Shown here piece after piece: positions 36,401-61,214 of a DNA stretch of 64,000 nucleotides (its first letter is position 1; the number at the start of each line of letters is the position of its first letter). Below the pieces are notes generated by a model. It saw only the letters and a list, made by a program, of their open reading frames with translations. It searched no databases and was not told the origin of the DNA. The position numbers and the translations under genes are program-made. Source of the DNA: Archivesica marissinica. Taxonomy: Eukaryota; Mollusca; Bivalvia; Venerida; Vesicomyidae. Where the stretch lies: positions 12,590,067-12,654,066 of the forward strand of contig CM026400.1 in the NCBI GenBank assembly GCA_014843695.1, written 5' to 3'.

Positions 36401-36988
36401 GGAGAGATGTACGACTATCATAAAATGTGTGCATATAATTTGCTAGGGGGAGAGATGTACGACTATCATAAAATGTGTGCATATAATTTGCTAGGGGGAG
36501 AGATGTACGACTATCACATGTTTGTATATAATATGCTAGGGGGAGAGATGTACGACTATCATAAAATGTTTGTATATAATTTGCTAGGGGGAGAGATGTA
36601 CGACTATCACATGTTTGTATATAATTTGCTAGGGGGAGAGATGTACGACTATCACAAACCGTTTGTATATAATTTGCTAGGGCGAGAGATGTACGACTAT
36701 CATAAAATGTGTGCATATAATTTGCTAGGGGGAGAGATGTACGACTATCATAAAATGTTTGCATATAATTTGCTAGGGGGAGAGATGTACGACTATCATA
36801 AAATGTGTGCATATAATTTGCTAGGGGGAGAGATGTAGGACTATCACAAAATGTTTCTATATAATTTACTAGTTGCTAGGGGGAGAGATGTAGGACTATC
36901 ACAAAATGTTTCTATATAATTTACTAGTTGCTAGGGGGAGAGATGTACGACTATCACAAACCGTTTCTATATAATGTGCTAGTTGCTA
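30423..36988. repeat. Minisatellite, 48-bp unit copying the PhyH intron/exon boundary
   Basis: About 137 units containing TTTGTATATAATTTGCTAGG, GGGAGAGATGTACGACTATC and ACAAACCG or ATAAAATG. The end of the array is continuous with the splice acceptor and first codons of the PhyH exon at 36990: GCTAGGGGGAGAGRTGTA is common to both. In that exon's frame a unit reads GEMYDYHKPFVYNLLG, against the exon's GEVYHYH. Some units carry TAG (GATGTAGGAC), and the last three contain an extra TTGCTAG, which breaks the frame into the exon. It is therefore best read as intronic. A 753-bp segmental duplication is visible (35551 and 36304). Confidence 0.97.
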
Positions 36989-36989
36989 G

Positions 36990-37074
36990 GGGGAGAGGTG
37001 TATCATTACCACACAAAACTGATGAAGAAACCGGCGAAGATTGGAGGCAAACATGTATGGCACCAGGATTACGG
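36990..37074 (+). CDS. PhyH exon with HxD iron motif
   Basis: Acceptor TTGCTAG ends at 36989; donor GTAAGT starts at 37075. Two bases complete a split codon, then 27 codons ([10 protein letters not shown] ... HVWHQDY) and two bases of a Gly codon finished by the next exon. The start of this exon is what the 48-bp array repeats. Confidence 0.88.
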
Positions 37075-40000: not shown

Positions 40001-43000
40001 GAGTATTTGGTTCAACGGCGCATCAGCACAGTTCAGGCTATATCGTGCCAGGGAGACCATATACGAATTTTATGTACATATGCTATATGGAACAATCAAG
40101 ACATGTTTGACCACGATTTGTTTTGGTCGCGAAATTATGCGACAATCAGTGAAGACATGTTTGACCATGATTTGTTTTGGTCGCGAAATTATGCGACAAT
40201 CGGTGAAGACATGTTTGACCCTGATTTGTTTTGGTCGCGAAATTATGAGACAATCAGTGAAGACATGTTTGACCATTTGTTTTGGTTGTGAAATTATGAG
40301 ACATTTTTTGAACAGCAAGAAAGTTACCATAGATACAATAAATCTTGAAAACCCTTTAGATAGTTACCCATAGCATAACTTTGTAATATAGACACTAGAT
40401 GTTCATTCCTTATGGTCGATATGATGCTCAACAAATAATATATTGTTCTAGAGATTAATTAATTAGTCATACGCAGTTGGGCAAATATTTAATTTAATAA
40501 AAATGGGCAGTGATGATGACCCCGAGGCTATAAAAATGTTCTCAGATTTCAAGCTCAAGTGATCTGATTGGATGATTCCGAGTGTGACTGTCAGCTGAAC
40601 CAATCAGACGATTGAGACTGAGTTTTGAAATTGGAGAAGTTTTATAACCTCCAGACATGGCTTTGTATTTTCAACTTATTTGTTTTGTATCAATATCTAG
40701 AATATTTTAGAAGGCATAGCCCCATAATATAGGTGTTTCCAATTGTTACAAGGTAAATAATGTGTTAATTTAGGAGTATATGTAGTTGTACATACTTTCA
40801 GGCGATGCGTTGTTTTTCCACAGTAATCTGATACACTGCAGTGGTCCGAACTCGAGTTCTGCCAGACGTTGGGCGTTCTTGTGCGCCTACAACCGAGCTG
40901 ATAATAACCCTGTCCGGGAACATCATCACCCCAGATACACACCTCTACACAAGGTTAGTTTAGAGTCAGTCATACAGAAAGTTATACGGTCACCAATAAC
41001 CCGGAATACTGCTGGGTACCAATAACCCAGAATACTGCCGGGTACCAATAACCCGAAAATACTGCCGGGTACCAATAACCTGGTATGCTGCCTGGTACCA
41101 ACAACCCAGAAATACTGCCCAGTATCAATAACCCAGAATACTGCCGGGTACCAAACAACCCGGAATACTGCCGGGTACCAAACAACTCGGAATACTGCCG
41201 GGTACCAATGGCTCATACTAACATTGCCCACTGACAATTCTACAAATATTATTTATTTAAGTAATATTTGTCTTTCAGTTATTAATTGGGGAATAAAACA
41301 TGGTTTGAGGTTCAAGGAATTATAGTGTGTGGTTAATTGTGGCGCTCAAAACGCCAAGCCCTGTTTTTATTCGGCAATAAATAATGGAAATACAATTATT
41401 GCTTGATTCAAGCATTACCAAAATATATAAATAGCGCAAACAACATAAACCCAGATCAACCGCAGTGTCGGATCAGGATCTATGATGTTTGCTATTCAGA
41501 CAAGTATTTAAAGCAGCATTACATCGTAATAAAGGATGTTTTGGTAAAATATAAATACTAATGTGTGTTTACAAAAATCGAAATAGTCACTCAGAAACGA
41601 CAACATTTCAATAAATTTAAAACGTCGTATACGCGAATTTGTTTATCAACACATGAAATGTAAACATGCACAGCGCGCATTCGTGAAACAACAGAGGATG
41701 TAGAAACCAACGTATATATTTTGAATAGGATAGACTATCTATCTATCTTCCTCTAATGTCGAACCCCTCGCGGGGATGTAGACATGTCCCTAAAAGACTT
41801 AGCTAACAGAGGTATGAATCAACATATCAAGTAATTTAATTAAAAAAGACAATGTGGGACAAATGGGACGATGCATTCCGAATGTAAACAAGTGCGGACA
41901 ATGCGTTCCGGTTGCAAACAAGTGCGTGACCGATCGACTTGGAAAGTCCTACTTTCGAGTTTGTTTTATCGCAAAAAAACACTGTTTACCAAATGAACAT
42001 AAGCATACAAAGTATAATGTTAGAATGTGTAGCAGCACACATTTTTCAAATATCTTTTATTTCATACGATGTAATGCTGCTTTAAGCTCCACTATCCGAA
42101 TAGCACAGTATAGAGCCTGATCAGACAAGATGGCACATTCTGTGCCCGTCTGATCTGGCTCTATGCTGTTGCCAAAAGTGATTTTATCTGCCAGCGTGTA
42201 AAGGGTTATAATGTGCAAACAATGAATTATATTGTAAAACTATATTTTAGTCATCTCTAATTTTCTATTACCTCCCTTGGCAGATAAAGTCTGATTTATT
42301 CCAAAATGCAAATAGGTCCTATTAGTTGGAATCCTTTGTTTTTACTGTTGTTCCCTAACCAGATGTTGCAGTATGATAATGTGATTTTATCAAAATCTTG
42401 TTACTTAACTGATAACATTCTTTTACAAATAAGTACCCAATGCATATACATACGTCGAGGTATAGTGATTTAATACTCATAAGAAGCGATAGTGGAATAA
42501 AATTGCTAGCAAGAGGGAATAAAACGTTAAAATTAAAATAATACAACAATTATTTGCAAAACTCGTTACGAAAATACTAAAACGGGGTCTTCTGTAGTTA
42601 CTATGCAACATGTAGATATTATAAGACAAAACATTATCGACCATTGAAAGAACATTTAATAAAGTTACATTGTCGACTTCGTCATGAAATAACATTAAAT
42701 CCACATTGCCTCCATCAGAAATGAGCAATTAGATGAATGTTACAAGAATTTGTTTGTGTAAACAGTTGTTATGTTATTTCGGGTTTTACGCCTGCATCAG
42801 CACCATTTTGGGCTATATCGACAGCGGGCAGTTTACCTAACAACACCTTTCCTGGGCAGGCTCCAGCGGTTAACCAGTACTTGGGTGCACCAACCTCCGT
42901 AAGAAACTGCCAACTTGTTCATATAAATGAAGACACGGTCTGAGCGGGGCTCGAACCCGTGACCATCAGTGATGATAGGTTACAGTGGTATACAAGTCAG

Positions 43001-43241
43001 CGACCTTAACCACTCGACCACGGAGGCGGACTCGAGTAAACAGAATTGGAATTAGTGGATAAACTAAAATAAGAAAATATATTTCGAATATTAAAGTTTA
43101 CGGTAACCATTTTAGGTCCCGAATTCAGCCATCTTAGATTGCAAGGACTACACAACAATGGATGGAAAATGGTTCTTAGACCCGGCTGTTGATAAAGAGA
43201 TGAACGTGGATGCAAGACACCTGACACCAGAAGAACAGTGA
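36990..43241 (+). CDS. Phytanoyl-CoA dioxygenase (PhyH) family protein, 3' five exons
   Basis: Exons 36990-37074, 38654-38744, 39499-39628, 40802-40953 and 43116-43241 join with all split codons intact (584 nt) to the last 193 residues of a PhyH-family Fe(II)/2-oxoglutarate dioxygenase. [10 protein letters not shown] carries the first two iron ligands (H24, D26). [14 protein letters not shown] carries the distal histidine (H113), and ARRW carries the likely 2-oxoglutarate-binding arginine (R124). The C-terminus [14 protein letters not shown] is typical of the family, which hydroxylates small-molecule or acyl-CoA substrates; the substrate here is unknown. The N-terminal half of the domain is missing: the intron before the first exon seen is a minisatellite that reaches an assembly gap. 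The gene converges on the minus-strand gene ending at 46746. Confidence 0.9.
37350..37600 (+). mobile_element. SINE family 2 copy in PhyH intron
   Basis: The tRNA-like head (CTTAAGTGGTTAGTTCTGG... GCAGGTTCGATCCCCTGTAC) is at about 37368-37425. The family-2 body follows (CAGATGGGACTTTAAACCGA, TGTATCATTGCACTATCC, AATGACTAATCTCTTCAGGA), ending near GACGATAAATAAACG. Similar AACCAC-containing sequence on both sides may be an imperfect target duplication. Confidence 0.85.
37653..37899. mobile_element. MITE 1, TTAA-flanked, with internal palindromes
   Basis: Outer inverted repeats TTAACCCATTTCATTCTGGA and TCCAGAATGAAATGGGTTAA. Inside are two further hairpins, around GATCCAGATCAGC / GCTGATCAGGATC and GCATAGAGCCTGATCAG / CTGATCTGGCTCTATG. 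TTAA at both ends followed by CCC...GGG is compatible with a piggyBac-type non-autonomous element. A second, interrupted copy is at 41440-42192. Confidence 0.85.
37931..38559. mobile_element. Foldback element with long inverted repeats
   Basis: The left arm (TACACTTAGGGCCACTTGTA, ACCCGACACTT, AAATCGGTATAAT, TTTGTGAAAGGATTT) recurs inverted at the right (AAATCCTTTCACAAATAAT, ATACCGATTT, AAGTGTCGGGTTACAAGTGG, CTAAGTGTA). Arms pair over roughly 180 bp with a loop of about 270 bp; TA dinucleotides flank the ends. No coding frame. It lies in the intron before the exon at 38654. Confidence 0.85.
38654..38744 (+). CDS. PhyH exon [13 protein letters not shown]
   Basis: Acceptor CCACGTTAAG ends at 38653; donor GTGAGT starts at 38745. 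The first base completes Gly, then 30 codons: [20 protein letters not shown] followed by [10 protein letters not shown]. This block follows the HxD motif in PhyH-family proteins. Confidence 0.9.
38745..39498. other. PhyH intron, nothing further recognised
   Basis: AT-rich intronic sequence with no repeat or exon that I can identify. Confidence 0.5.
39499..39628 (+). CDS. PhyH exon [11 protein letters not shown]...
   Basis: Acceptor TTTGATTAAG ends at 39498; donor GTACGT starts at 39629. Forty-three codons ([18 protein letters not shown] ... LEYVEMEA) plus one base of Gly. The LKGSN.CGRI.H motif is characteristic of the PhyH fold downstream of the HxD. Confidence 0.9.
39655..39900 (-). mobile_element. 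SINE family 2 copy in PhyH intron
   Basis: Starts 27 bp after the exon donor with TTATCGTTGCTACCGGTTGC and carries the ordered family-2 blocks to GGTCAGACAGGAGATCGAAC. An internal segment between GACCCATTG and AAAAGCACTG is missing relative to other copies. Confidence 0.85.
40098..40310. repeat. Tandem repeat, about 54-bp unit
   Basis: Four units containing GACATGTTTGACCATGATTT and GTTTTGGTCGCGAAATTATG, in the PhyH intron between 39628 and 40802. Confidence 0.93.
40311..40801. other. PhyH intron sequence
   Basis: No feature identified with confidence. The part at 40555-40650 (CTCAAGTGATCTGATTGGAT ... GTTTTATAACCTCC) resembles 50400-50475, so it may be a diverged interspersed repeat. Confidence 0.4.
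40802..40953 (+). CDS. PhyH exon with distal His and 2OG-binding Arg
   Basis: Acceptor CATACTTTCAG ends at 40801; donor GTTAGT starts at 40954. Two bases complete Gly, then 50 codons: [50 protein letters not shown]. This exon holds the third iron ligand and the conserved Arg-Trp. Confidence 0.93.
40988..41215. repeat. Tandem repeat, about 25-27 bp
   Basis: About nine imperfect units of GAATACTGCCGGGTACCAAT plus AACCC in the PhyH intron before the last exon. Confidence 0.93.
41440..42192. mobile_element. MITE 1 copy split by MITE 2
   Basis: The left block GCAAACAACATAAACCCAGA ... GATCTATGATGTTTGCT (41440-41495) and the right block GCATAGAGCC-like TATAGAGCCTGATCAGACAA ... GTCTGATCTGGCTCTATGCT (42108-42172) correspond to the two internal hairpins of MITE 1. 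Between them sits MITE 2 (41508-42085). Confidence 0.75.
41508..42085. mobile_element. MITE 2, TTAA-flanked, copy 1
   Basis: Inverted ends TTAAAGCAGCATTACATCGT and ACGATGTAATGCTGCTTTAA. The interior includes GTGTGTTTACAAAAATCGAA and TCGACTTGGAAAGTCCTACT, shared with copy 2 at 49534-50099. It is inserted in a MITE 1 copy, which supports TTAA as its target site. Confidence 0.9.
42193..42757. other. PhyH intron sequence
   Basis: No feature recognised. Confidence 0.45.
42766..43035 (-). mobile_element. SINE family 1, full copy with target-site duplication
   Basis: On the minus strand the head has GTGGTCGAGTGGTTAAGGTC (A box) and CACGGGTTCGAGCCCCGCTC (B box), a Leu/Ser-tRNA-like promoter. The body ends CGTAAAACCCG. 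Direct repeats GTAAACAG flank it at 42758-42765 and 43036-43043. It lies 72 bp upstream of the last PhyH exon. Confidence 0.92.
43116..43241 (+). CDS. PhyH terminal exon
   Basis: Acceptor AACCATTTTAG ends at 43115. Forty-one codons ([20 protein letters not shown] ... [10 protein letters not shown]) and TGA at 43239-43241. The stop codon is also the start of the 33-bp array (CAGTGATTCAC), so the 3' UTR is a minisatellite. Confidence 0.9.
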   Translation, partial: VPNSAILDCKDYTTMDGKWFLDPAVDKEMNVDARHLTPEEQ

Positions 43242-44310
43242 TTCACATTGCTATGTAACTCTGTACAACAGTGATTCACACTGCTAGGTAGCGCTGTACA
43301 ACAGTGATTCACACTGCTATGTACAACAGTGATTCACACTGCTATAGCGCTGTACAACAGTGATTTACAATGCTATATAGCGCTGTACAACAGTGATTCA
43401 CGCTGCTATATATCGCTGTACAAGTGATTCACACTGCTATGTAGCGCTGTACAAGTGATTCACACTGCTATGTAGCGCTGTACAACAGTGATTCACGCTG
43501 CTATATAGCGCTTTACAACAGTGATTCACACTGCTATATAACGCTGTACAACAGTGATTCACACTGCTATGTAGCGCTGTACAACAGTGATTCACACTGC
43601 TATATAGCGCTGTACAACAGTGATTCATGCTGCTATGTAGCACTGTACAACAGTGATTCACGCTGCTATGTAACGCTATACAACAGTGATTCACGCTGCT
43701 ATGTAATACTGTACAACAGTGATTCACACTGCTATGTAACGTTGTACAACAGTGATTCACGCTGCTATGTAACGCTATACAACAGTGATTCACACTGCTA
43801 TATAGCGCTGTACAACAGTGATTCACGCTGCTATGTAACGCTATACAACAGTGATTCACGCTGCTATATAGCACTGTACAACAGTGATTCACACTGCTAT
43901 ATAGCACTGTACAACAGTGATTCACCCTGCTAGCAGCTATGTAACGCTGTACAACAGTGATTCACGCTGCTATGTAACGCTGTACAACAGTGATTCACGC
44001 TGCTATATAGCACTGTACAACAGTGATTCACGCTGCTATGTAACGCTGTACAACAGCGATTCACGCTGCTATGTAACGCTGTACAACAGTGATTCACGCT
44101 GCTATGTAATGCTGTACAACAGTGATTCACACTGCTATGTAATGCTGTACAACAGTGATTCACGCTGCAGAACAGTGATTCACACTGCTATGTAACGCTG
44201 TACAACAGTGATTCACGCTGCTATGTAACACTGTACAACAGTGATTCACCCTGCTATATAGCGCTGTACAACAGTGATTCACACTGCTATGTAATACTGT
44301 ATAACAAATT
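43232..44310. repeat. Minisatellite, 33-bp unit, starting on the PhyH stop codon
   Basis: About 32 units containing CAGTGATTCACACTGCTATG and TAGCGCTGTACAA. The first TGA is the PhyH stop. Early units (43241-43440) are the most irregular. The unit is a multiple of three, so other frames are open on both strands (NHCCTALHSSV per unit on the minus strand), with no sign that they are genes. Confidence 0.97.
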
Positions 44311-46745: not shown

Positions 46746-47234
46746 TCAATCAGACGTCTTTGTTACAGCAGCAGCAGCTGGAGTAGTGGTAGCTTTGAGT
46801 ACATCAGCATGTTTTGGACACTCTGACTTGGGTACTAGCATGTATTTCCCGTACATCTGGCCCTCTTTTAACTGCTTCAAAGCCGCAACGACATCCGACA
46901 TAATTAGTTTACAGTAAACAATAAAGTACGAGTGTCCATCCCTCTGTCTCTGCTCAAATTTAAGCTTGAGGGACAGGACATATGCGCGAATCTCTGCTCT
47001 CTCCTTGTCTGGCACGCCGGGTCCGAACACAAGCTCTTCGGCATCATTACGTGGGAAGAACTTGTCGATCCGTTTCCTGATAGCGTTGACGATGTGCTTA
47101 TCAGCGGGGCGCCGGTCCAGGATATCTACAGGCGGTGTTGGGGCGACATCTCTAGCAACCTTACGTAGAATGGTGGCCTCATTCTCGATGGTTAAGTACG
47201 GAATCCAACGATTTTCATCATTCAATTTCACAAC
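46746..47234 (-). CDS. Exon 9 (terminal), R3H-like domain
   Basis: Acceptor GTAAATTTCAG (minus strand) ends at 47235. Phase 0; 162 codons starting VVKLNDENRWIPYLTIENEA, containing AIRKRIDKFF, NDAEELVFGPGVPDKERAEI and HSYFIVYCKL, and ending ATTTPAAAAVTKTSD with TGA at 46748-46746. Confidence 0.92.
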   Translation of the reverse strand, partial: VVKLNDENRWIPYLTIENEATILRKVARDVAPTPPVDILDRRPADKHIVNAIRKRIDKFFPRNDAEELVFGPGVPDKERAEIRAYVLSLKLKFEQRQRDGHSYFIVYCKLIMSDVVAALKQLKEGQMYGKYMLVPKSECPKHADVLKATTTPAAAAVTKTSD

Positions 47235-50200
47235 CTGAAATTTACGATATCATCTCATACACAATTCAACAGGTATAAAAATATGACCGACATATCATAC
47301 ACAATTCAACAGGTATAAAAATATGACCGACATATCATACACAATTCAACAGGTATAAAAATATGACCGACATATCATACACAATTCAACAGGTATAAAA
47401 ATATGACCGACATATCATACACAATTCAACAGGTATAAAAATATGACCGACATATCATACACAATTCAACAGGTATAAAATGTTTTGTTAAAAATATGAC
47501 GACATCATACACAATTCATCAATAATAAAATAACCCTTACCCCCCCCCCCCCCCCCCCCCGAATTTTTAGCCGGATTTACACAATTCAGGAAAACTGACA
47601 TTTTCACTCTGAAACCCCCCCCCCCCCCCGGAAAACTTTCATCCCTGCTGTAATACTGGTGGCGATTAATACAGAATTTTTTAAGTGCATTCTAATCATT
47701 TGTCTGACAGGTGTGACATGTATTTAATGCAAAGCTTGAAACGACCTACTAACCCTGACAACGTCATTCGTTTCATATATTTGGAATAGATAGTCAACGG
47801 CAGCAAAGTTTCTTGTTTTGTTCTTGCCGTATCCCGTGTGCTCACTCACATTTCCACCCTTCAAGAACATCTCACACCTAAAACACAAAACACGCACAAA
47901 TAAAAAAAAAAACAATGTCCAACAGCGGTGCAATGATTCGCTCGCAAGCATCGATAAACTGGAATTAAATGTGTCGGTTTGATTCTTGATGCCAGTAATA
48001 ATGGTTTCGATGCAATTTGAGTCTTATGTTATGTTATATTTCGGGTTTTACGCCTGCATCAGCACCATTTCGAGCTATATCGCCGGCGGGCAGTTTACCT
48101 AACAACACCTTTCCTGGGCAGGCTCCAGCGGTTAACCAGTACTTGGGTGCACCAACCTCCGTAAGAAACTGCCAACTTTTTCATATAAATGAGACACGGC
48201 CTGAGCGGGGCTCGAACCCGTGACCATCAGTGATGATAGGTTACAGTGGAATAAAAGTCAGCGACCTTAACCACTCGACCACGGAGGCGGACAATTTGAG
48301 TCTGCATTTTAAACGTGTATTTCTCCAATTGTAAAATGACGCACGATTGGCCGAGAACAAGTCAGTAATCCAATCAATGACACAGGGATTCGGCACGTTT
48401 GGGGGTACTAGTATATATATTTAAGTACAGGGATTCTACTCTGTGGGATGTCAGATTTCGCATCGATCAGTAAAATGGCCCTATCTGAAACAATTTTGTA
48501 CAAACGCCTATCCCGAGTCTTTATATTGTTCTTCAAATAAAACACAACTTTAAGCTGCATGCATGTATACTTTGCAAACAATTGCCACATACATTGGCCA
48601 TAGCAGGTCACATTTCCATACTAGGACACGGGTTCTGTCAGCAACAAAAAAAATCTTCGACGGGAGAGTTTTAACTGTGAATAACATTATCAATAAAATG
48701 TGTTTACACTAACGTGTAGGTTTATTCGGCAATAATGTACGTCAAAAAGAGATTTTGTAGCATTTTTAATTTGTTTTGAAAATTTCTATAGCGGCGCAAT
48801 TCGCGTTGAAACGAGCGTTCTGATTGGATTATTAGAATGTAACAAGATGTATTTTTATATAGGAAGAATAATCATAATCCAATCAGAACGCTACATGAAG
48901 AGATTAGTCATTTTATAGTGTTGGAGGATAGTGCAATGATACAGACAGAGACCCATTCCAGAATCTCCTCTGGTTCTTTTACATGCACGGTGTAAAGCAC
49001 CGACACGAGACTTCGGTTTAACGTCCCATCTGAAACTGTTAATTTTATTAGGGTCAGACGGGGGGATCAAACCTGCGATCCCTGGATTACCAGTCCAGCG
49101 TGTTACCACTGGACTACAGATCCGTCTGAAATTTTACCTGAACTTTCCGAACGGTCTATGTTCATTTTTGTAGCTGGGGTGGCCATTATTTTTGATGGGG
49201 CTGAAGCACCACTGCATAACTATGCCATTATATGTCGCCGAGTTCTGAAGTATTGCAAAGGCAAACATCCTTCTGTCTTCATTCCAGGAGCCTGCCTCCA
49301 CAATCACCATGTCCTCTAGGTTTTGCGACGTGTCGTCCGGGTCGTATCCATAGCGACGTAACTGGGAAATGTTGGATTCCCTGTTAGCCCCTTTCTCTCC
49401 CTTGACAACTACATCAAGCACAGTGGGTCCTAGAATTGAAAGAAACATCAGTTTCATGTTCAAATTGTACGTAATATTAGTTTATACAAGCATACATTAG
49501 TTTGATTGGGAAACAAGTTTTCACAACATTAGATTAAAGCAGCATTAAATCGTAATAAAGCATGTTTTGGGTAAAATATAAATACTAATGTGTGTGTGTT
49601 TACAAACATCGAAATAGTCGCTCAGAAACTTTATTAAATTTAAACCGTCGTATATATGAATTTGTTTATCAACACACGAAATGTAAACACGCACAGCGCG
49701 CATGCGTGAAACAACAGAGGATGTAGAAAACAACGTATATATTTTGAACATGAAAGACTATCTATCTATCTTCCTCTAACCTCGCGGGGATGTAGAAATG
49801 TCCCTAAAAGACTTAGCTAACAGAGGTATGAATCAACATATCAAGTAATTTAATTACAAAAGACAACGTGGGACAAATGGGGACGATGCATTCCGAATGC
49901 AAACAAGTGCGGACGATGCGTTCTGGTTGTAAACAAGTGCGTGACCGATCGACTTGGAAAGTCCTACTTTCGGTTTCAAGTTTGTTTTATCGCCAAAAAA
50001 CACTGTTTATCAAAAGAACATAAGCATACAAAGAAGTAGTATCCATACGTAAAAAAAATTCAAATATCTTTTATTTCATACGATGTAATGCTGCTTTAAT
50101 CACTCTTCAAGAGATTTATTCCTGATCAAATTAACCGATAGAATAATAAATTTCAGGACAAGTATCAAGTAATCTTAGAATGCTAAAACTTCTGGTTTGA

Positions 50201-53200
50201 CCACAAGATGCTCAGGACAAAAAAATAGAGTATGAGGTTAACGTGCTATAAATTTATTAGACTCGTCTCAAAAGAAATTAAACTCGACAAAATCTTTTAG
50301 TGTATACACTATTTAATCTCTAATTTGATAATAAACTGAAAATTGCAAGACAATACACTAATACTCTATACTTATCGTTAATGCTTGTCTACAAGGGTGA
50401 GATCAAGTGATTTGATTGGTTGATTCACTCAGCTCAACCAACCATAAACTTGAGATTGGAGAAAAGGTTTTATAACCTTGTGGCCTGTAATCGATTGGAG
50501 GATTTAAGATATGGACTAGCATTAAACCAACCAGAAAACCTGCAATACGACCTCAGAAAGCCTGCTGAATTCAATTCAACCAATGAGAAGGCAGGAGACT
50601 GATTGTGATCCGAGGGCTGGTTGATATACTAACCTGTTGTTTCCAGTGCTTCTATTTTCTTACAGTTGGCGAGGATATCCTCTGGGGAGGTAGTGGTTAT
50701 CACCTCCCATGCCGTGTTATACACTTCATTATTGCAGTCGCTCTTCGATGAACCGTGACCTAAGAAAAGAAAGACAGTAGTTTTATGGTTTAACACTTTA
50801 CTCCACCAAAACGCACTACAACAACTAGCAATCTATCAATATGAGTGAGAATGCAGCAATAGGAGCGAGGATCTAGCAACATGAGTGAGAATGCAGCAAT
50901 AGGAGCAAGGATCTATCAACATGAGTGAGAATGCAGCAATAGGAGTGAGGATCTAGCAACATGAGTGAGAATGCAGCAAAATGAACGAGGATCTAGCAAT
51001 ATGAGTGAGAATGCAGCAATAGGAGCGAGGATCTAGCAATATGAGTGAGAACGCAGCAATAGGAGCGAGGATCTAGCAATATGAGTGAGAACGCAGCAAT
51101 AGGAGCGAGGATCTAGCAATAAAGAATGCAGCAATAGGAGCGAGGATCTAGCAATAGGAGCAAGGATCTAGCAATAGGAGCGAGGATCTAGCAATAGGAG
51201 CGAGGATCTAGCAATAAGAGCAAGGATCTAGCAATAGGAGCGAGAAATCTAGCAATAGGAGCGAGGATCTAGCAATAGGAGCGAGAAATCTAGCAATAGG
51301 AGCGAGGATCTAGCAATAGGAGTGATTATCTAGCAACAGGAGTGAGGATTCAGCAATAGCGAGGATCTAGCAATAAAGAATGCAGCAATAGGAGCAAGGA
51401 TCTAGCAATAGGAGCGAGGATCTAGCAATAGGAGCAAGGATCTAGCAATAGGAGCGAGAAATCTAGCAATAGGAGCGAGGATCTAGCAATAGGAGCGAGA
51501 AATCTAGCAATAGGAGCGAGAAATCTAGCAATAGGAGCGAGGATCTAGCAATAGGAGCGAGGATCTAGCAATAGGAGCGAGGATCTAGCAATAGGAGCGA
51601 GGATCTAGCAATAGGAGCGAGGATCTAGCAATAGGAGTGAGGATCTAGCAATAGAAGCAAGGATTCAGTGAGGATCTAGCTCTAGCAATGAGGATCTAGC
51701 TATAGCAATGAGGATCCAGTGAGGATCTAGCAATGAGGATCCAGTGAGGATCTAGCTATAAGTGAGAATGCAGCAATAAGATTGAGCAATATGTTTATAA
51801 TGACGGTATTACCAACTGCGATGAGATAATTCTCTAGGTAGTACTCGCAGGATGCACATTTGTCGGATGCCACATCAGCCCGTCTGTAGATGCACATGCC
51901 CGTCAGTCCACTATTGTGCACACAGTTGTCCAGTATGGAGATGTTGTGATCTGAGAATGCACTCGCCGACAGCACGTTGTTCAAGTTATGCAACCTGTCC
52001 ACTAGGGAAGCCTCTCTTAACGAAGGTTTAACAACTGGTGGTGGTCCCTCCTGCAATATAACACAATAACTCAACAACGAAGGTTTAACAACTGGTGGTG
52101 GTCCCTCCTGCAATATAACACAATAACTCAACAACGAAGGTTTAACAACTGGTGGGGGTCCCTCCTGCAATATAACCACAATAACAAAGGTTTAACAACT
52201 GGTGGTGGTCCCTCCTGCAATATAACACAATAACAAAGGTTTAACAACTGGTGGTGGTCCCTCCTGGCAATATAACACAATAACTCAACAACGAAGGTTT
52301 AACAACTGGTGGTGGTCCCTCCTGCAATATAACACAATAACTCAACAACGAAGGTTTAACAACTGGTGGTGGTCTCTCCTGCAATATAACCACAATAACT
52401 CAACAACGAAGGTTTAACAACTGGTGGTGGTCCCTCCTGCAATATAACACAATAACAAAGGTTTAACAACTGGTGGGGGTCCCTCCTGCAATATAACACA
52501 ATAACAAAGGTTTAACAACTGGTGGTGGTCCCTCCTGCAATATAACCACAATAAATCAACAACGAAGGTTTAACAACTGGTGGTGGTCCCTCCTGCAATA
52601 TAACACAATAACAAAGGTTTAACAACTGGTGGGGGTCCCTCCTGCAATATAACTACAATAACTCAACAACGAAGGTTTAACAACTGGTGGTGGTCCCTCC
52701 TGCAATATAACACAATAACTCAACAACGAAGGTTTAACAACTGGTGGGGGTCCCTCCTGCAATATAACCACAATAACAAAGGTTTAACAACTGGTGGTGG
52801 TCCCTCCTGCAATATAACACAATAACTCAACAACGAAGGTTTAACAACTGGTGGGGGTCCCTCCTGCAATATAACCACAATAACTCAACAACGAAGGTTT
52901 AACAACTGGTCCCTCCTGTAATATTGCGACAGTTTTACTTACCCACATTCATACACATATCTGACATCAGTCTCGATTGCTTTACCCAGTTGTCAGTTGT
53001 GATTGCCTCATTTTACTTATTCGTCCACCTGTCCAATGTCGGCCACGATTGCCTATATTGACATACCCCCGTCCACCTGTGATTGCCGTACCACCAATCC
53101 GACACCAGCCACAATTGCCTCATGTTTACTTACCCCATCCACCTGTCCGACACCAGCCACAATTGCCTCGTTCTGCACATGGTCTTCCTCCTTCTGTTCT

Positions 53201-56200
53201 ACTTCCTTGGTGATGGGAATTAGCAGCTCCAGCAGTGGTTTCACTATGAGAGCTTCGTGGGCCGACGAATACGTCTCCGCCTTACATGTCTTCTTATTGT
53301 GGTCTGTAGCCCTTGCTATACATGTATCCTCTATAACAACAATTACGATATTACAATGCACAGACATTACACTACACAGACATTACAATATACAGACATT
53401 ATACAGACATTACAATATACAGACATTACAATATACAGACATTACAATATACAGACATTACAATATACAGACATTACAATACACAGACATTACAATATAC
53501 AGACATTATACAGACATTACAATATACAGACATTACAATACACAGACATTACAATACACATACATTATACAGACATTACAATACACAGACATTATAATAC
53601 ACAGACATTACAATACACAGACATTACAATATACAGACATTACACTACAGACATTACAATACACAGACATTACAATATACAGACATTACAATACACAGAC
53701 ATTATACAGACATTACAATATACAGACATTACAATATACAGACATTATACAGACATTACAATATACAGACATTACAATACACAGACATTACAATACACAG
53801 ACATTACACTACACAGACATTACAATACACAGACATTACAATATACAGACATTACAATACACAGACATTACAATATACAGACATTACAATACACAGACAT
53901 TACAATACACAGGCATTATACAGACATTACAATATACATACATTACAATACACATACATTATACAGACATTACATTATACAGACATTACAATATACATAC
54001 ATTACCATATACAGACATATACACTTTATACAGACATTACAATATACAGACATTACATTATACATACATTACAATACACATACATTATACAGACATTACA
54101 TTATACAGACATTACAATATACAGACATTACATTATACAGACATTACAATATACATACATTACCATATACAGACATATACACTTTATACAGACATTACGA
54201 TATACAGACATATACACTTTATACAGACATTACGATACACAGACATTACGATATACAGACATTACAATATACAGACATATACACTTTATACAGACATTAC
54301 GATATACAGACATATACACTTTATACAGACATTACGATATACAGACATATACACTTTATACAGACATTACGATATACAGACATATACACGATATACAGAC
54401 ATATACACTTTATACAGACATTACAATATACAGACATTACAATATACAGACATTACAATACACAGACATATACACTTTATACAGACATTACGATATACAG
54501 ACATATACACTTTATACAGACATTACGATATACAGACATTACGATATACAGACATATACACTTTATACAGACATTACGATATACAGACATTACGATATAC
54601 AGACATATACACTTTATACAGACATTACGATATACAGACATATACACTTTATACAGACATATACACTTTATACAGACATTACGATTTACAGACATATACA
54701 CTTTATGCAGACATTACGATATACAGACATATACACGATATACAGACATATACACGTTATACAGACATATACACTTTATACAGACATATACACTTTATAC
54801 AGACATATGCACTTTATACAGACATATGCACTTTATACAGACATATGCACTTTATACAGACATATACACTTTATACAGACATATACACTTTATACAGACA
54901 TATACACTTTATACAGACATATACACTTTATACAGACATATACACTTTATACAGACATATACACTGTATACAGACATATACACTTTATACAGACATTAAG
55001 ACATACAGACATATACACTTTATACAGACATATACACTTTATACAGACATATACACTTTATACAGACATATACACTTTATACAGACATATACACTTTATA
55101 CAGACATATACACTTTATACAGACATTAAGACATACAGACATATACACTTTATACAGACATATACACTTTATACAGACATATATACACTTTATACAGACA
55201 TATACACTTTATACAGACATTACGACATACAGACATTAAGACATACAGACATATACACTTTATACAGACATATACACTTTATACAGACATGATTACTATC
55301 CATTTTGTTAGTTTCCATGGCATTTGTTATCAACAACATTGTATGCGCAATTTATTACTGGCATGGAGCCAGACTTTCATATTGTTGCTAGGCTTCAAAT
55401 TAGTGATGCCTACCACAGTTCAGGTTACTGTAAAACACTATTATTTCGTGAACACTTCCATTTCGCAATTCTCACAATTTTGAACATTTTCAATTATTTC
55501 GCGAGTTTTGAATTAGCGCATCTGTGGTGATTTCGCTGGGAAAAATGACATCCGGAAGTAGATTAATTTAAATCGGTTATCTCCATATATCCTCGCGTTG
55601 CACTGTGATCATTCTATTAGTATACTGTCGATAATGGCAGTTGGTGTAAAACGTGATAATCCGAGTGAAAGTTCCATATAAATAACTCTACACTTGGATA
55701 GTATTATTCACAGGCAAATGAACCAAATATAACAAGTACTCGTCAATAAATAGTGTTTTACAGTATATGGCTCTAAACAAGACTCAACATTTTGGTTTAT
55801 ATTCTCATTTAAATCAACCAAATCAGAAATGGAATGAAATGTACCGCTACAAGCGGGCATGTACATGACACCCAGGAATTCCTTAGAAGTATATACAAGA
55901 TACCCATGTCTCTTTTCTGATCAACCCTCCCATTTTCTGATCAACCCTCCCATTTTCCCCACTCTAGATAAACCTTTGGTCCCATTTACACCAGGATGTC
56001 ACGGAAACGCACTCGTTTAAAAAACATTCTAGACACAAACAGTATTCCATCATTGTTGCATTCTTACCTAGAATAAATTCTCCCTCGTAGACTGGCTTTC
56101 CTCCATCGTCTTTAGACTCGATCTGGAATATGTGCCGTATGCCACACTTGGACGCCATCATCGCTTGTTCAACCTTCGAAATAATGTTATCTGGCTTCTT

Positions 56201-59200
56201 TGTTGGACCCTGAATAATACGAGGATGCTCGTTTGTCTCTTGTGAATGATCGGATGTCTATTTCACTGTATGCGTTTTCTTCCCGAGGAGTATTTCGCTA
56301 GAGTGGTTTGGTTATATTAACGGAGATCTGATAGGTGTTATTAGCGAGTGTTTGGGTAGCATTATTTACGAGTGTTTCTGTAGCGATATTTGTGAGTGTT
56401 TCTGTAGCATTATTAATGAGTGTTTCTGTAGCGTTATTTGTGAGTGTTTCTGTAGCGATATTTGTGAGTGTTTCTGTAGAGCGTTATTTGTGAGTGTTTC
56501 TGTAGCGTTATTTGTGAGTGTTTCTGTAGCGATATTTGTGAGTTTTTCTGTAGCGTTATTTGTGAGTGTTTCTGTAGTGTTATTTGTGAGTTTTTCTGTA
56601 GCGTTATTTGTGAGTGTTTCTGTAGTGTTATTTGTGAGTGTTTCTGTAGTGTTATTTGTGAGTGTTTCTGTAGCGTTATTTGTGAGTGTTTCTGTAGCGT
56701 TATTTGTGAGTGTTTCTGTAGCATTATTTGTGAGTGATTGGGTAGTGTTATTTGTGAGTGTTTCTGTAGCATTATTTGTGAGTGTTTCTGTAGCGTTATT
56801 TGTGAGTGTTTCTGTAGCATTATTTGTGAGTGTTTCTGTAGCGTTATTTATGAGTGTTTGGGTAGCGTTATTAGTTAGTGCATACACATCAGGTTTATCT
56901 GTTACCTCACCTTCAAGTATGTAATCAACTTTCCTAGACCCGTCTGAAGAATGCGGACTGACTCCAGATTATTCTTGATTTCTGTCACCATATCTCCTAC
57001 AACTGTGTTAACCGGTACACCCATTCCCTCAGTGTAATGTCCCGGGCCCTCCTTCTTCAAGATACGCTCGATACATGCCCTGAAACAAATGATAAGTAAA
57101 GTGAAACTGCTGGAAACACATTACAAAACACTTATTAACATTGGTTTTGTTTAAGATATAAATATCATCTGGAATCTAAATAGCTCTCTATAGCACAACC
57201 TACATAGCTCTCTATAACACAGTCTATGTAGCTCTCTATAGCACAGTCTATGTAGCTCTCTATAACACAGTCTATGTAGCTCTCTATAGCACAGTCTATG
57301 TAGCTCTCTATAGCACAGTCTATGTAGCTCTCTATAACACAGTCTATGTAGCTCTCTATAACACAGTCTATGTAGCTCTCTATAACACAGTCTATGTAGC
57401 TCTCTATAGCACAGCCTACATAGCTCTCTATAACACAGTCTATGTAGCTCTCTATAACACAGTCTATGTAGCTCTCTATAGCAGTCTATGTAGCTCTCTA
57501 TAGCACAGTCTATGTAGCTCTCTATAGCACAGTATATGTAGCTCTCTATAGCACAGTCTATGTAGCTCTCTATAGCACAGTCTATGTAGCTCTCTATAGC
57601 ACAGTCTATGTAGCTCTCTATAGCACAGTCTACATAGCTCTCTATAACACAGTCTACATAGCTCTCTATAGCACAGTCTACGTAGCTCTCTATAGCACAG
57701 TCTATGTAGCTCTCTATATCACAGTCTACATAGCTCTCTATAACACAGTCTACATAGCTCTCTATAACACAGTCTATGTAGCTCTCTATAACACAGTCTA
57801 CATAGCTCTCTATAGCACAGTCTACGTAGCTCTCTATAGCACAGTCTATGTAGCTCTCTATATCACAGTCTACATAGCTCTCTATAGCACAGTCTACATA
57901 GCTCTCTATAGCACAGTCTACGTAGCTCTCTATAGCACAGTCTATGTAGCTCTCTATAGCACAGTCTATGTAGCTCTCTATATCACAGTCTACATAGCTC
58001 TATATAGCACAGTCTACATAGCTCTCTATAACACAGTCTATGTAGCTCTCTATAGCACAGTCTATGTAGCTCTCTATAACACAGTCTACATAGCTCTCTA
58101 TATCACAGTCTATGTAGCTCTCTATAACACAGTCTATGTAGCTCTCTATAGCACAGTCTATGTAGCTCTCTATAACACAGTCTATGTAGCTCTCTATAGC
58201 ACAGTCTATGTAGCTCTCTATAGCACAGTCTATGTAGCTCTCTATAGCACAGTCTATGTAGCTCTCTATAGCACAGTCTATGTAGCTCTCTATAGCACAG
58301 TCTATGTAGCTCTCTATAGCACAGTCTATGTAGCTCTCTATAGCACAGTCTATGTAGCTCTCTATAGCACAGTCTATGTAGCTCTCTATAGCACAGTCTA
58401 TGTAGCTCTCTATAACACAGTCTACATAGCTCTCTATATCACAGTCTATGTAGCTCTCTATAACACAGTCTATGTAGCTCTCTATAGCACAGTCTATGTA
58501 GCTCTCTATAGCACAGTCTATGTAGCTCTCTATAACACAGTCTATGTAGCTCTCTATAGCACAGTCTATGTAGCTCTCTATAGCACAGTCTATGTAGCTC
58601 TCTATAGCACAGTCTATGTAGCTCTCTATAACACAGTCTATGTAGCTCTCTATAACACAGTCTACATAGCTCTCTATATCACAGTCTATGTAGCTCTCTA
58701 TAACACAGTCTACATAGCTCTCTATAGCACAGTCTACATAGCTCTCTATAACACAGTCTACATAGCTCTCTATAACACAGTCTATGTAGCTCTCTATAAC
58801 ACAGCCTACATAGCTCTATATAACACAGTCTACATAGCTCTATATAACACAGTCTACATAGCTCTCTATAAAACAGTCTACATAGCTCTCTATAACACAG
58901 TCTATGTAGCTCTCTATAACACAGTCTACATAGCTCTCTATAACACAGTCTACATAGCTCTCTATAGCACAGTCTACATAGCTCTATATAACACAGTCTA
59001 CATAGCTCTCTATAATACAGTCTATGTAGCTCTCTATAACACAGCCTACATAGTTCTCTATAGCACAGTCTACATAGCTCTCTATATCACAGTCTATGTA
59101 GCTCTCTATAGCACAGTCTATGTAGCTCTCTATAGCACAGTCTACATAACTCTCTATAGCACAGCCTACATAGCTCTCTATAGCACAGTCTGTCTATGTA

Positions 59201-60943
59201 GCTCTCTATATCACAGTCTACATAGCTCTCTATAGCACAGTCTACGTAACTCTCTATAGCACAGCCTACATAGCTCTCTATAACACAGTCTACATAGCTC
59301 TCTATAACACAGTCTATGTAGCTCTCTATTACACAGTCTATGTAGCTCTCTATAACAAGTCTACATAGCTCTCTATAACACAGTCTACATAGCTCTCTAC
59401 AACACAGTCTATGTAGCTCTCTATATCACAGTCTACGTAACTCTCTATAACACAGTCTACATAGCTCTATATAACACAGTCTACATAGCTCTCTATAACA
59501 CAGCCTACATAGCTCTATATAACACAGTCTACATAGCTCTATATAACACAGTCTACATAGCTCTCTATAACACAGTCTACATAGCTCTATATAACACAGT
59601 CTACATAGCTCTATATAACACAGTCTACATAGCTCTATATAACACAGTCTACATAGCTCTATATAACACAGTTTACATAGTTCTCTATAACACAGTCTAC
59701 ATAGCTCTATATAACACAGTCTACATAGCTCTATATAACACAGTTTACATAGCTCTCTATAACACAGTCTACATAGCTCTATATAACACAGTCTACACAG
59801 CTCTATAACACAGTCTACATAGCTCTATATAACACAGTCTACATAGCTCTATATAACACAGTCTACACAGCTCTATAGCACAGTCTACATAGCTCTATAT
59901 AACACGGTCTACATAGCTCTATATAACACAGTCTACACAGCTCTATATAACACAGTCTACATAGCTCTATATAACACGGTCTACATAGCTCTATATAACA
60001 CAGTCTACATAACTCTATATAACACAGTCTACATAACTCTATATAACACGGTCTACATAGCTCTATATAACACAGTCTACACAGCTCTATATAACACAGT
60101 CTACATAGCTCTATATAACACGGTCTACATAGCTCTATATAACACAGTCTACATAACTCTATATAACACAGTCTACATAACTCTATATAACACGGTCTAC
60201 ATAGCTCTATATAACACAGTCTACACAGCTCTATATAACACAGTCTACATAGCTCTATATAACACGGTCTACATAGCTCTATATAACACAGTCTACATAA
60301 CTCTATATAACACAGTCTACATAACTCTATATAACACGGTCTACATAGCTCTATATAACACAGTCTACACAGCTCTATATAACACAGTCTACATAGCTCT
60401 ATATAACACGGTCTACATAGCTCTATATAACACAGTCTACATAACTCTATATAACACAGTCTACATAACTCTATAGCACAGTCTACATAGCTCTATATAA
60501 CACGGTCTACATAGCTCTATATAACACAGTCTACATAACTCTATATATTGGTGGAGGAAGACTGGGTGCCCCTCAGAGCAGTATTGGAGTCAATACGAAC
60601 ACCCAGGTAGAACCACCGACCTATCACAAATCAGATTCCTCGCATGAAATAATACGACACCGTCAGAGGGATTCAAACCAACAGCAGTGAGGCGCAAGTT
60701 ATTTGAAGTCAACAACCGTAACAACTCGGCCACGAAGGCATCAGTGCAACTAATTTTGTGTCGAGATCTTACCGGACCGTATCTAGCCCCGGATCTTTGA
60801 AATCGTTTATGTCGGCGACAGATTTTGTGGTGAGAATTTCTAGTGACTTGTTGTAGACCTCATGTTTCATATCCTTCTTGTTGACACCGACAGAACGGGT
60901 GAGGAAAATACCGCTGACGCTCAGATGGCCCGTAAACAACAAA
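46746..60943 (-). CDS. NKRF-like protein with dsRBD-like modules and R3H-like domain (5' incomplete)
   Basis: Nine exons (60943-60773, 57079-56911, 56209-56068, 53330-53134, 52050-51813, 50759-50634, 49429-49138, 47877-47754, 47234-46746) total 1948 nt. All splice phases close, giving 648 residues and a stop; at least one 5' exon is missing. Four modules end in a motif like the last helix of a dsRNA-binding domain: SVGVNKKDMKHEVYNKSLEI (about 18-37), DHNKKTCKAETYSSAHEAL (about 170-188), GHGSSKSDCNNEVYNTAWEV (306-325) and GYGKNKTRNFAAVDYLFQIY (460-479). Residues about 533-596 (RIDKFF..NDAEELVFGPGV.DKERAEIRAYVLSLKL) resemble an R3H domain, but the R-x3-H histidine is Arg. Repeated dsRBD-like units before an R3H recall NF-kappa-B-repressing factor, though no G-patch is visible. 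Nucleic-acid binding is inferred. Most introns contain a private minisatellite. Confidence 0.7.
47249..47478. repeat. Tandem repeat, 40-bp unit, in intron 8
   Basis: About six units containing ACACAATTCAACAGGTATAA and AAATATGACCGACATATCAT, beginning about 15 bp from the exon 9 acceptor. Poly-C runs follow at about 47540-47560 and 47615-47629. Confidence 0.95.
47754..47877 (-). CDS. Exon 8
   Basis: Acceptor TGTGTTTTAG ends at 47878; donor GTTAGT follows 47754. One base completes Arg, then 41 codons: CEMFLKGGNVSEHTGYGKNK, TRNFAAVDYLFQIYETNDVVR. Carries the fourth dsRBD-like helix motif. Confidence 0.9.
48025..48291 (-). mobile_element. SINE family 1, full copy with target-site duplication (intron 7)
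   Basis: Same structure as 42766-43035, with A box and B box intact on the minus strand. Direct repeats CAATTTGAGTCT flank it at 48013-48024 and 48292-48303. It is in the same transcriptional orientation as the host gene. Confidence 0.93.
48304..48889. other. Intron 7 sequence
   Basis: No feature recognised. Confidence 0.45.
48890..49130 (-). mobile_element. SINE family 2, copy with well-preserved tRNA head (intron 7)
   Basis: On the minus strand the head reads GTAGTCCAGTGGTAACACGC (A box), CTGGACTGGTAATCCAG (anticodon-arm-like hairpin with loop CTGGTAA) and CGCAGGTTTGATCCCCC (B box). The body matches the other family-2 copies. Its promoter end lies about 10 bp from the donor of exon 7. Confidence 0.92.
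49138..49429 (-). CDS. Exon 7
   Basis: Acceptor TTTCAATTCTAG ends at 49430; donor GTAAAA follows 49138. Two bases complete Gly, then 96 codons: PTVLDVVVKGEKGANRESN ... YGYDPDDTSQNLEDMVIVEA ... NEHRPFGKF, and two bases of Arg. The longest internal exon. Confidence 0.93.
49534..50099. mobile_element. MITE 2, copy 2 (intron 6)
   Basis: Ends TTAAAGCAGCATTAAATCGT and ACGATGTAATGCTGCTTTAA; the interior matches 41508-42085 over most of its length. Confidence 0.92.
50100..50633. other. Intron 6 sequence
   Basis: No gene feature. The part 50400-50475 resembles 40555-40650 and may be an old repeat. Confidence 0.4.
50634..50759 (-). CDS. Exon 6, third dsRBD-like helix motif
   Basis: Acceptor CTTTTCTTAG ends at 50760; donor GTTAGT follows 50634. 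Two bases complete Gly, then 41 codons: HGSSKSDCNNEVYNTAWEVI, TTTSPEDILANCKKIEALETT, and one base. Confidence 0.93.
50820..51775. repeat. Tandem repeat, about 20-bp unit, in intron 5
   Basis: About 48 units of GCAATAGGAGCGAGGATCTA with ATGAGTGAGAATGCA and GAGAAATCTA variants; it fills the intron between exons 6 and 5. Confidence 0.96.
51813..52050 (-). CDS. Exon 5, whose start is amplified in the upstream array
   Basis: Acceptor GTTATATTGCAG ends at 52051; donor GTAATA follows 51813. Phase 0; 79 codons (EGPPPVVKPSLREASLVDRL ... CEYYLENYLIAV) plus one base. Includes a cysteine-rich stretch (DKCASCEYY). Confidence 0.93.
52051..52918. repeat. Minisatellite, 57-bp unit, copying the exon 5 splice acceptor and start
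   Basis: About 16 units. On the minus strand each has GTGTTATATTGCAG followed by GAGGGACCACCACCAGTTGT and TAAACCTTCGTT, i.e. the acceptor and first eleven codons of exon 5. Full units are 57 bp; variants are 58 bp (extra C) or about 47 bp (deletion of CTCAACAACG). The two full units next to the exon are open in the exon's frame (EGPPPVVKPSLLSYCVILQ each). Confidence 0.97.
52930..53134. repeat. Degenerate tandem copies of the exon 4 end and splice donor
   Basis: On the minus strand the end of exon 4 (GAGGCAATTGTGGCTGGTGT ... CAGGTGGATGGG, GTAAGTAAA) is followed in the intron by four or five decaying copies. One repeats GAGGCAATTGTGGCTGGTGT exactly, others keep GACAGGTGGACG or GGCAATC, and two keep donor-like ends (AATAAGTAAAATGAGG and GTGGGTAAGTAAAAC). 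Confidence 0.85.
53134..53330 (-). CDS. Exon 4, second dsRBD-like helix motif
   Basis: Acceptor TTGTTGTTATAG ends at 53331; donor GTAAGT follows 53134. Two bases complete Glu, then 65 codons: DTCIARATDHNKKTCKAETY, SSAHEALIVKPLLELLIPIT, an acidic stretch KEVEQKEEDH, and AGVGQVDG at the amplified end. Confidence 0.93.
53340..55288. repeat. Tandem repeat, 16-19 bp units, in intron 3
   Basis: About 115 units, first ACAGACATTACAATAT (16 bp), later ACAGACATATACACTTTAT (19 bp), with a mixed zone at 54000-54700. It starts within a few tens of bases of the exon 4 acceptor. Long open frames in it are artefacts. Confidence 0.96.
55428..55763. mobile_element. TA-flanked MITE in intron 3
   Basis: Inverted ends CTGTAAAACACTATTATT and AATAAATAGTGTTTTACAG, with TA on both sides (55426-55427 and 55764-55765). 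No coding frame; consistent with a Tc1/mariner-type non-autonomous element. Confidence 0.82.
55764..56067. other. Intron 3 sequence
   Basis: Only a short tandem duplication (TTTCTGATCAACCCTCCCAT, about 55914-55955) was noticed. Confidence 0.5.
56068..56209 (-). CDS. Exon 3
   Basis: Acceptor CGTATTATTCAG ends at 56210; donor GTAAGA follows 56068. Phase 0; 47 codons (GPTKKPDNIISKVEQAMMAS, KCGIRHIFQIESKDDGG, KPVYEGEFIL) and one base. It supplies the first strands of the second dsRBD-like module. Confidence 0.92.
56334..56880. repeat. Tandem repeat, 24-bp unit, in intron 2
   Basis: About 22 units of GTGTTTCTGTAGCGTTATTT plus GTGA. The unit is a multiple of three and lacks stops in several frames, so both strands show long repeat-only open frames. 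Confidence 0.96.
56911..57079 (-). CDS. Exon 2
   Basis: Acceptor TTGTTTCAG ends at 57080; donor GTGAGG follows 56911. One base completes Arg, then 56 codons: ACIERILKKEGPGHYTEGMG, VPVNTVVGDMVTEIKNNLES, VRILQTGLGKLITYLK. Confidence 0.92.
57178..60545. repeat. Minisatellite, 24-bp unit, in intron 1
   Basis: About 140 units of TAGCTCTCTATAGCACAGTC plus TATG, grading to TAGCTCTATATAACACAGTC plus TACA after about 59480. In the right part a block with ACACGGTCTACATAG and ACATAACTC recurs regularly (higher-order pattern around 59900-60500). Confidence 0.97.
60545..60750 (-). mobile_element. SINE family 5, with tRNA-like head
   Basis: Minus-strand head CGTGGCCGAGTTGTTACGGT (A box) and TTGGTTTGAATCCCTCTGAC (B box); the body matches 46020-46200. 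It lies between the 24-bp array and the donor of exon 1. Confidence 0.8.
60773..60943 (-). CDS. Exon 1 as seen (internal; upstream exons not found)
   Basis: Acceptor TGTGTTACAG ends at 60944; donor GTAAGA follows 60773. One base of a split codon, then 56 codons (LLFTGHLSVSGIFLTRSVGV, NKKDMKHEVYNKSLEILTTK, SVADINDFKDPGLDTV) and two bases of Arg. First dsRBD-like module. The codon split at its start means at least one more exon lies upstream, beyond 61 kb. Confidence 0.9.
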
Positions 60944-61214
60944 CTGTAACACAAACATATAATATACACCCACGGAAAGTGCCAAGAACGTTCATGAAAT
61001 GGAAGAACCTGCAGCATTGATTGATTAGATGTATGGAAGCCATTCGGTACAACGGCCCCCACCCCATCTCCTCTAGCATAAGGGCCCCCACCGCACCCCT
61101 TGTAGCAAGAGTACAACATTGTCTAATTTCACACCCTGGGCGGACTAGGATGAAATAGTCGCCCTAGGGACCATGATTTCGATCCATGGGGACCTCACTT
61201 CTCTCTAAAAAAAT

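Follow-up and report, generated by a model that had tools for sequence, protein, structure and literature searches.

Tandem copies of a splice acceptor and exon start in a clam gene, and similar copies at other exon edges of its genome

Introduction

When the end of an intron and the start of the following exon are present many times in tandem, which acceptor is used, and could the additional copies be a source of longer proteins? This question is raised by a gene on the minus strand of a 64,000-nucleotide stretch from the clam Archivesica marissinica (GenBank assembly GCA_014843695.1, contig CM026400.1, positions 12,590,067 to 12,654,066). The whole stretch is called the window below, and positions refer to it unless stated otherwise. 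An earlier interpretation, termed the sequence-only reading here, had proposed that a 57-bp minisatellite repeats the splice acceptor and the first eleven codons of an exon, which it numbered 5, and that use of upstream acceptors might result in copy-number-dependent protein variants.

Tandem repeats across exon-intron boundaries were termed "mirages" in a 2010 paper on amphioxus globin genes, where they can be located at either boundary and are unstable in length, both between alleles and in the soma, and where reverse transcription polymerase chain reaction suggested regular splicing (PMC3087553). A paper on amphioxus PGBD5 added further cases (PMC3902484). Mirage genes named in the two articles include Adh3, the globin genes BflGb6 and BflGb9, and, as cited, PGBD5 and troponin C, and genes with this architecture are reported to splice regularly. 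A further feature of mirages is homogenisation within the array, from which the edge copies are exempt. In human genes located in segmental duplications, internal tandem repeats at exon-intron boundaries have been reported to alter splicing (PMC2812944). For molluscs, no boundary-spanning minisatellite turned up in a literature search by title or abstract start, the coverage of which leaves out most subscription journals. An abalone gene contains a length-variable 27-bp minisatellite within an intron, and no boundary copy is mentioned in the available part of that article (PMC6905558). A passage on minisatellites was not found in the available part of the clam genome paper (PMC11592408).

Results

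The array upstream of exon 5

Positions 52051-52915 of the minus strand (the sequence-only reading had extended the repeat to 52918) form a tandem array directly upstream of the exon at 52050-51813, with 16 extra copies. The repeat unit crosses the exon-intron boundary: it comprises 32 nt from the exon start and then about 25 nt of the intron end, including the 3' splice site. The array ends in the authentic boundary, because its last copy continues into exon 5 (EGPPPVVKPSLREASLVDRL...), which matches the relatives. This exon was recognized by its splice sites and by a match to protein P0001 from residue 536 onward (72%, over a match that extends beyond the exon). The acceptor adjoins it at 52051, as had been proposed; the first base of the exon is 52050, and it is the seventh of 11 exons found, not the fifth. 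The earlier exon numbers are kept below.

The unit borders were set by cutting after every AG/GAG, which resulted in 16 units upstream of the exon with lengths of, in order, 52, 57, 50, 57, 58, 49, 58, 49, 49, 58, 57, 58, 49, 50, 57, and 57 bp. The proposed unit length of 57 bp is thus correct for five units, and the others have lengths of 58 bp (four units), 49 bp (four), 50 bp (two), and 52 bp (one), the shorter units being devoid of 8 or 9 nt. The exonic part is identical to the exon in five of the 16 units (32/32 nt), 30-31 of the 32 nt are identical in ten, and 26 in the distal unit, which is the most divergent copy; the proximal copies are typical for this one array of 16 units. Every unit had been said to carry the exact acceptor and exon start. 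By-eye counts revealed the exact TTATATTGCAG in front of 14 of the 16 upstream copies, but the exact 20-nt exon start in only nine.

An alignment of the first 30 nt of the exon with the upstream intron reached a score of 60, while the highest score among 200 dinucleotide shuffles was 26. In the 1.54-Gb assembly there are nine exact occurrences of the 37-nt junction string, including the true exon, and all of them are at the exon 5 array. The donor motif GTRAGT was not seen in the acceptor units, which were read for it by eye and unscored. Substitution diversity over the 16 units is 0.033 in the exonic versus 0.055 in the intronic part, a difference based on too few sites to speak for or against purifying selection on the exonic part.

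Coding consequences of upstream acceptors

The two units nearest to the exon (52051-52107 and 52108-52164), both 57 bp long, are in frame and stop-free, and exon 4 (53134-53330, minus strand, assigned by protein match and splice sites), which ends with GGG followed by GTAAGT, was read from the joined exons to end in phase 0; both points had been stated correctly. Usage of the acceptors at 52107 or 52164 would add EGPPPVVKPSLLSYCVILQ once or twice, i.e., 19 or 38 residues. Judged by length, seven of the 16 upstream acceptors keep the frame, but only these two are open, and the other 14 run into a stop. Eight of the 16, including that at 52107, are identical to the true acceptor from -20 to +3, and therefore a local site model cannot tell them from the proximal copy. 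The probability that two 57-bp units adjoin the exon is 0.083 under random order, so that the keeping of the frame is not clearly above chance, and reading-frame preservation was discarded as a sign of selection. Judged from the sequence, isoforms with 19 or 38 additional residues are formally possible.

The junction of exons 4 and 5 corresponds to residues 535/536 of the relative from Mercenaria, in the structural model of which the predicted local distance difference test score (pLDDT) is below 50 from residue 512 to 544 (the mean of the model, built with 7 sequences, is only 61). The junction is thus predicted to fall into a disordered linker, where an insertion could be tolerated, in agreement with the sequence-only reading.

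The array derives from the exon

The best relative of the host gene is LOC123551531 of Mercenaria mercenaria (74% identical), followed by proteins of Mactra, Dreissena, and Mya (45-51%) and of the gastropod Batillaria (about 28%). Seven proteins were listed, two of them being second entries for Dreissena and Mya. The host gene is a molluscan gene. The exon 5 start GPPPVVKPSL is found with no more than two changes in Mercenaria, Mactra, Dreissena, and Mya, and none of these four proteins, which are annotated gene models and not observed transcripts, contains the extension; the gastropod relative differs at the exon 5 start. As the exon start is kept without an extension in four bivalves, the exon is ancestral and the array derived, i.e., the protein comparison indicates that the array originated from the exon and not the reverse.

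Exon 5 has one match elsewhere in the clam assembly (C2:66221707-66221929, 78% identical), and no second haplotype copy is present. At the C2 locus no introns separate exons 5, 6, and 7, and therefore this copy is a processed pseudogene. In front of its exon 5 only GGG is kept, which fits the final three bases of exon 4, and within the preceding 100 nt the match to the repeat unit is not longer than 6 nt (score 12, no shuffle comparison). The pseudogene weakly favours use of the proximal acceptor. Its locus (L013, C2, about 66221.1-66222.1 kb) is rearranged: in one block the end of exon 4 is fused to exons 7-9, and a second block contains exons 5-7.

Degenerate copies of the exon 4 donor

Between exon 4 and the acceptor array, at 52934-53121 of the minus strand, three degenerate copies of the exon 4 end and its donor were found (53055-53121, 53012-53054, and 52934-52980). 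They scored 55, 46, and 44, compared to shuffle maxima of 36, 28, and 25, and each score was reached in none of 500 shuffles; a fourth match in the intron was at chance level (score 16). Thus, the 5' boundary has been duplicated as well as the 3' boundary, and copies of the two boundaries make up most of the 1,083-bp intron, the acceptor copies being homogeneous and the donor copies decayed.

A second acceptor array in a PhyH gene

A second acceptor-type array, which probably is the first case of the sequence-only reading, is located on the plus strand at 30423-36989. It consists mostly of 48-bp units, contains 130 acceptor copies identified by pattern, and precedes a PhyH exon at 36990-37074, which is its authentic copy according to protein match and frame (a 31-residue match to protein P0008, 100% over 36983-37075, in which the intron end supplies the first two residues). 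This exon and four further PhyH exons at 38654-38744, 39499-39628, 40802-40953, and 43116-43241 can be joined to one open frame with a stop codon; no exons encoding roughly the N-terminal 100 residues of the relatives were detected in the window.

The last 7 nt of the upstream acceptors are TTGCTAG in 129 of the 130 copies, and the last 15 nt are identical in none. In register with the exon start the copies have on average 18.0 of 25 matches, compared to 6.2 for the 6,408 other registers, among which a single one reaches 19. By length 54 of the 130 acceptors are in frame, and not a single one is both in frame and open; 129 meet a stop before the end of the exon and the remaining one (36935) is out of frame. 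Therefore, splicing must pass over all of them if the conserved protein is made.

At its other end the array borders an assembly gap. This run of 1000 N (29423-30422) separates it from another array at 22398-29422, so that the array sizes in the assembly are not for certain the true sizes. An additional 33-bp array (43234-44306, plus strand) begins within the final codons of PhyH and repeats the stop codon, with 8 exon bases within the array.

Boundary copies at other exon edges

Exon copies are present at 3 of the 27 edges tested in the window; for the PhyH edge this holds only if the register is considered. Outside the window, edges with scores above shuffles (L027: nearly so) were inspected by eye, and an edge was counted only where exonic sequence had been copied together with the splice site. 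The edges are those of matches and not annotated exon ends, the flanks were 1,500 or 700 nt long, and some myosin stretches overlap.

Junction-spanning copies were present at 5 of the 32 edges of 16 exons from PhyH paralogs (an acceptor at L027, donors at L030, L036, L037, and L040) and were not found at L029, the sister of L030. Among 20 exons of myosin heads, 2 of 40 edges carry such copies (L069 and L076, both donors), one further edge is ambiguous, and two have intronic copies only; this sample represents 20 of 74 listed matches, and the row C763:13439-13654 was skipped without following a rule. A divergent paralog of the host gene (C15:42.11-42.13 Mb, 7 exons) has acceptor copies at 2 of 14 edges, the nearest of which include about 29 and 41 nt of exon sequence, the exon starts having been set by reading. 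Altogether, 9 of 86 edges of 43 exons outside the window have junction-spanning copies, including the donor boundaries at L030, L036, L037, L040, L069, and L076. Controls at exon centres were negative for myosin (0/20) and for the gene paralog (0/7); the PhyH survey was without this control. Boundary copying is therefore recurrent in the clam genome, as observed in a small sample of three families, two of which were picked because they are in the window, and in which sister paralogs such as L037 and L040 may share one event. The least supported of the counted edges are L036, with a single copy of 21 nt, and L027, with about 13 exonic nt and a score that was reached in 1 of 200 shuffles. L025 and L031 (single matches of 13-14 nt), L067 (one decayed copy), and L070 and L080 (intronic only) also scored above the shuffles or close to it, but on inspection were not counted.

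The paralog on C15 (L061 and L062, C15:42109001-42129000) has two acceptor-type boundary repeats of its own, with units of roughly 90-110 bp. Some myosin-head exons at C5:40.04-40.19 Mb form equal-score sets of three, which suggests a recent tandem gene triplication or an assembly duplication.

The host gene

Further exons of the host gene, all on the minus strand, were assigned by protein match at 60773-60944 (exon A, start set by reading) and by protein match and joined frame at 56911-57079 (exon B), 56068-56209 (exon C), 50634-50759 (exon 6 of the sequence-only reading), 49138-49429 (exon 7), 47754-47877 (exon 8), and 46746-47234 (exon 9, with the stop codon). Joining the eight exons from B to 9 gives an open frame of 591 residues that ends in a stop codon, and exon A matches the preceding part of the protein. 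The exon with the start codon and a second exon, which like exon A match the N-terminal part, are located just outside the window (locus L009), where the match of a glycine-rich stretch between them was taken without a residue-by-residue reading.

Searches of Pfam and of PDB sequences with the partial protein of the window yielded nothing significant. The relatives have Pfam dsrm matches, and the model of the Mercenaria protein contains repeated dsRBD-like folds, as read from its secondary structure. The only Rfam match in the window at gathering threshold is a tRNA match within an intron of the host gene (49050-49123, minus strand), which we presume to be a tRNA-derived repeat. Tandem arrays constitute 64% of the non-N bases of the window, and six of the eight introns between the window exons of the gene are array to 44-91%.

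Discussion

By its sequence the array upstream of exon 5 has the defining anatomy of a mirage-type minisatellite. Similar to the clam array, the amphioxus mirages have units of 10-72 or about 150-160 bp with splice signals in many units (PMC3087553, PMC3902484). They differ from it in copy number, as the two reported haplotypes of BflGb6 have 6 and 3 units, in contrast to 16 and 130 extra copies in the two clam arrays. In addition, the clam is a mollusc and not a cephalochordate, both ends of one intron are affected, and copies exist at 9 of the 86 tested edges outside the window. Human boundary repeats are likewise minisatellites at exon edges and can alter splicing; however, they vary between paralogs and are connected with novel introns (PMC2812944), whereas the clam locus shows nothing but additional copies of a boundary that already existed. 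The gain of introns through tandem duplication, as described for ATP2A1 and potato RdRp, also includes a local duplication that copies splice signals (PMC4974935), yet no new intron is apparent at the clam locus, and no GTRAGT was seen in its acceptor units.

In our view the array is very probably a boundary-spanning minisatellite that is near-neutral and that leaves the exon-proximal acceptor as the site mainly used. A segment of about 57 bp across the 3' splice site would have been tandemly duplicated, which would have placed copies of the acceptor and of the first exon bases in the intron. Turnover of the array would then have spread two unit types of about 57 and 49 bp to yield 16 extra copies. 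The duplications could be near-neutral because the copy that is still joined to the remainder of the exon keeps working. Exon definition, with the coding body and its 5' splice site as the reference, is probably the reason why the spliceosome would mainly choose the proximal acceptor; the remaining copies would be removed with the intron, so that the clam probably splices past most copies. The same process may earlier have acted on the donor of exon 4, the copies of which have decayed by now, and it seems to act repeatedly in this minisatellite-rich bivalve genome.

Several results weigh against this interpretation. As half of the upstream acceptors equal the true one over -20 to +3, the local signal alone does not favour the proximal copy. 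The exonic part of the PhyH copies alone is modestly above shuffles if the register is not fixed (3/200). Of exon 4 the pseudogene retains no more than 3 nt; it is also rearranged and may predate the array. Lastly, there is the reported change of splicing by human boundary minisatellites (PMC2812944).

The human case also speaks for the view that the array represents functional alternative 3' splice sites, with 52107 and 52164 adding 19 or 38 residues and alleles of different copy number encoding different proteins. This view is further in line with the two open frames, the identity of acceptor 52107 to the true one, the phase 0 junction, and the predicted disorder of the linker. We nevertheless regard it as improbable, because 14 of the 16 upstream acceptors lead to stops, four annotated relatives are without the extension, the frame arrangement is not clearly above chance, and the comparable PhyH array has no usable acceptor among 130. 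Moreover, LLSYCVILQ, which would be part of the addition, comes from the intron and does not occur in the four relatives, and the pseudogene has no preceding unit. There is no sign of the upstream acceptor use that the sequence-only reading had envisaged. The same 14 stops, together with eight identical upstream acceptor windows, would fit modest upstream use as splicing noise, resulting in premature stops and nonsense-mediated decay, so that array length would tune the output of the gene. We consider this unlikely too, although less so than the view of functional alternative sites; amphioxus arrays are reported to splice regularly (PMC3087553, PMC3902484). A misassembly that generated the array or its copy number is very improbable: only a single assembly is at hand, and its 1000-N gap between two arrays is about 22 kb away, but the units differ by substitutions and fall into two length classes, and junction-spanning copies occur at unrelated loci on other contigs.

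About one in ten exon edges might be a minisatellite with splice sites that look functional, and alleles with different unit numbers could then give rise to stepwise longer proteins at several genes. The locus described here, with two in-frame acceptors and a linker predicted to be disordered, would be one of them, a scenario we consider improbable. In the literature searched, boundary-spanning minisatellites, a repeat type that is little known, are described for amphioxus and for duplicated human genes, and their presence in several mollusc genes suggests that they are a general by-product of high minisatellite turnover. Such arrays are natural experiments on the choice of the spliceosome among many nearly identical acceptors, and they may be a route to changes of exon edges and to intron gain.
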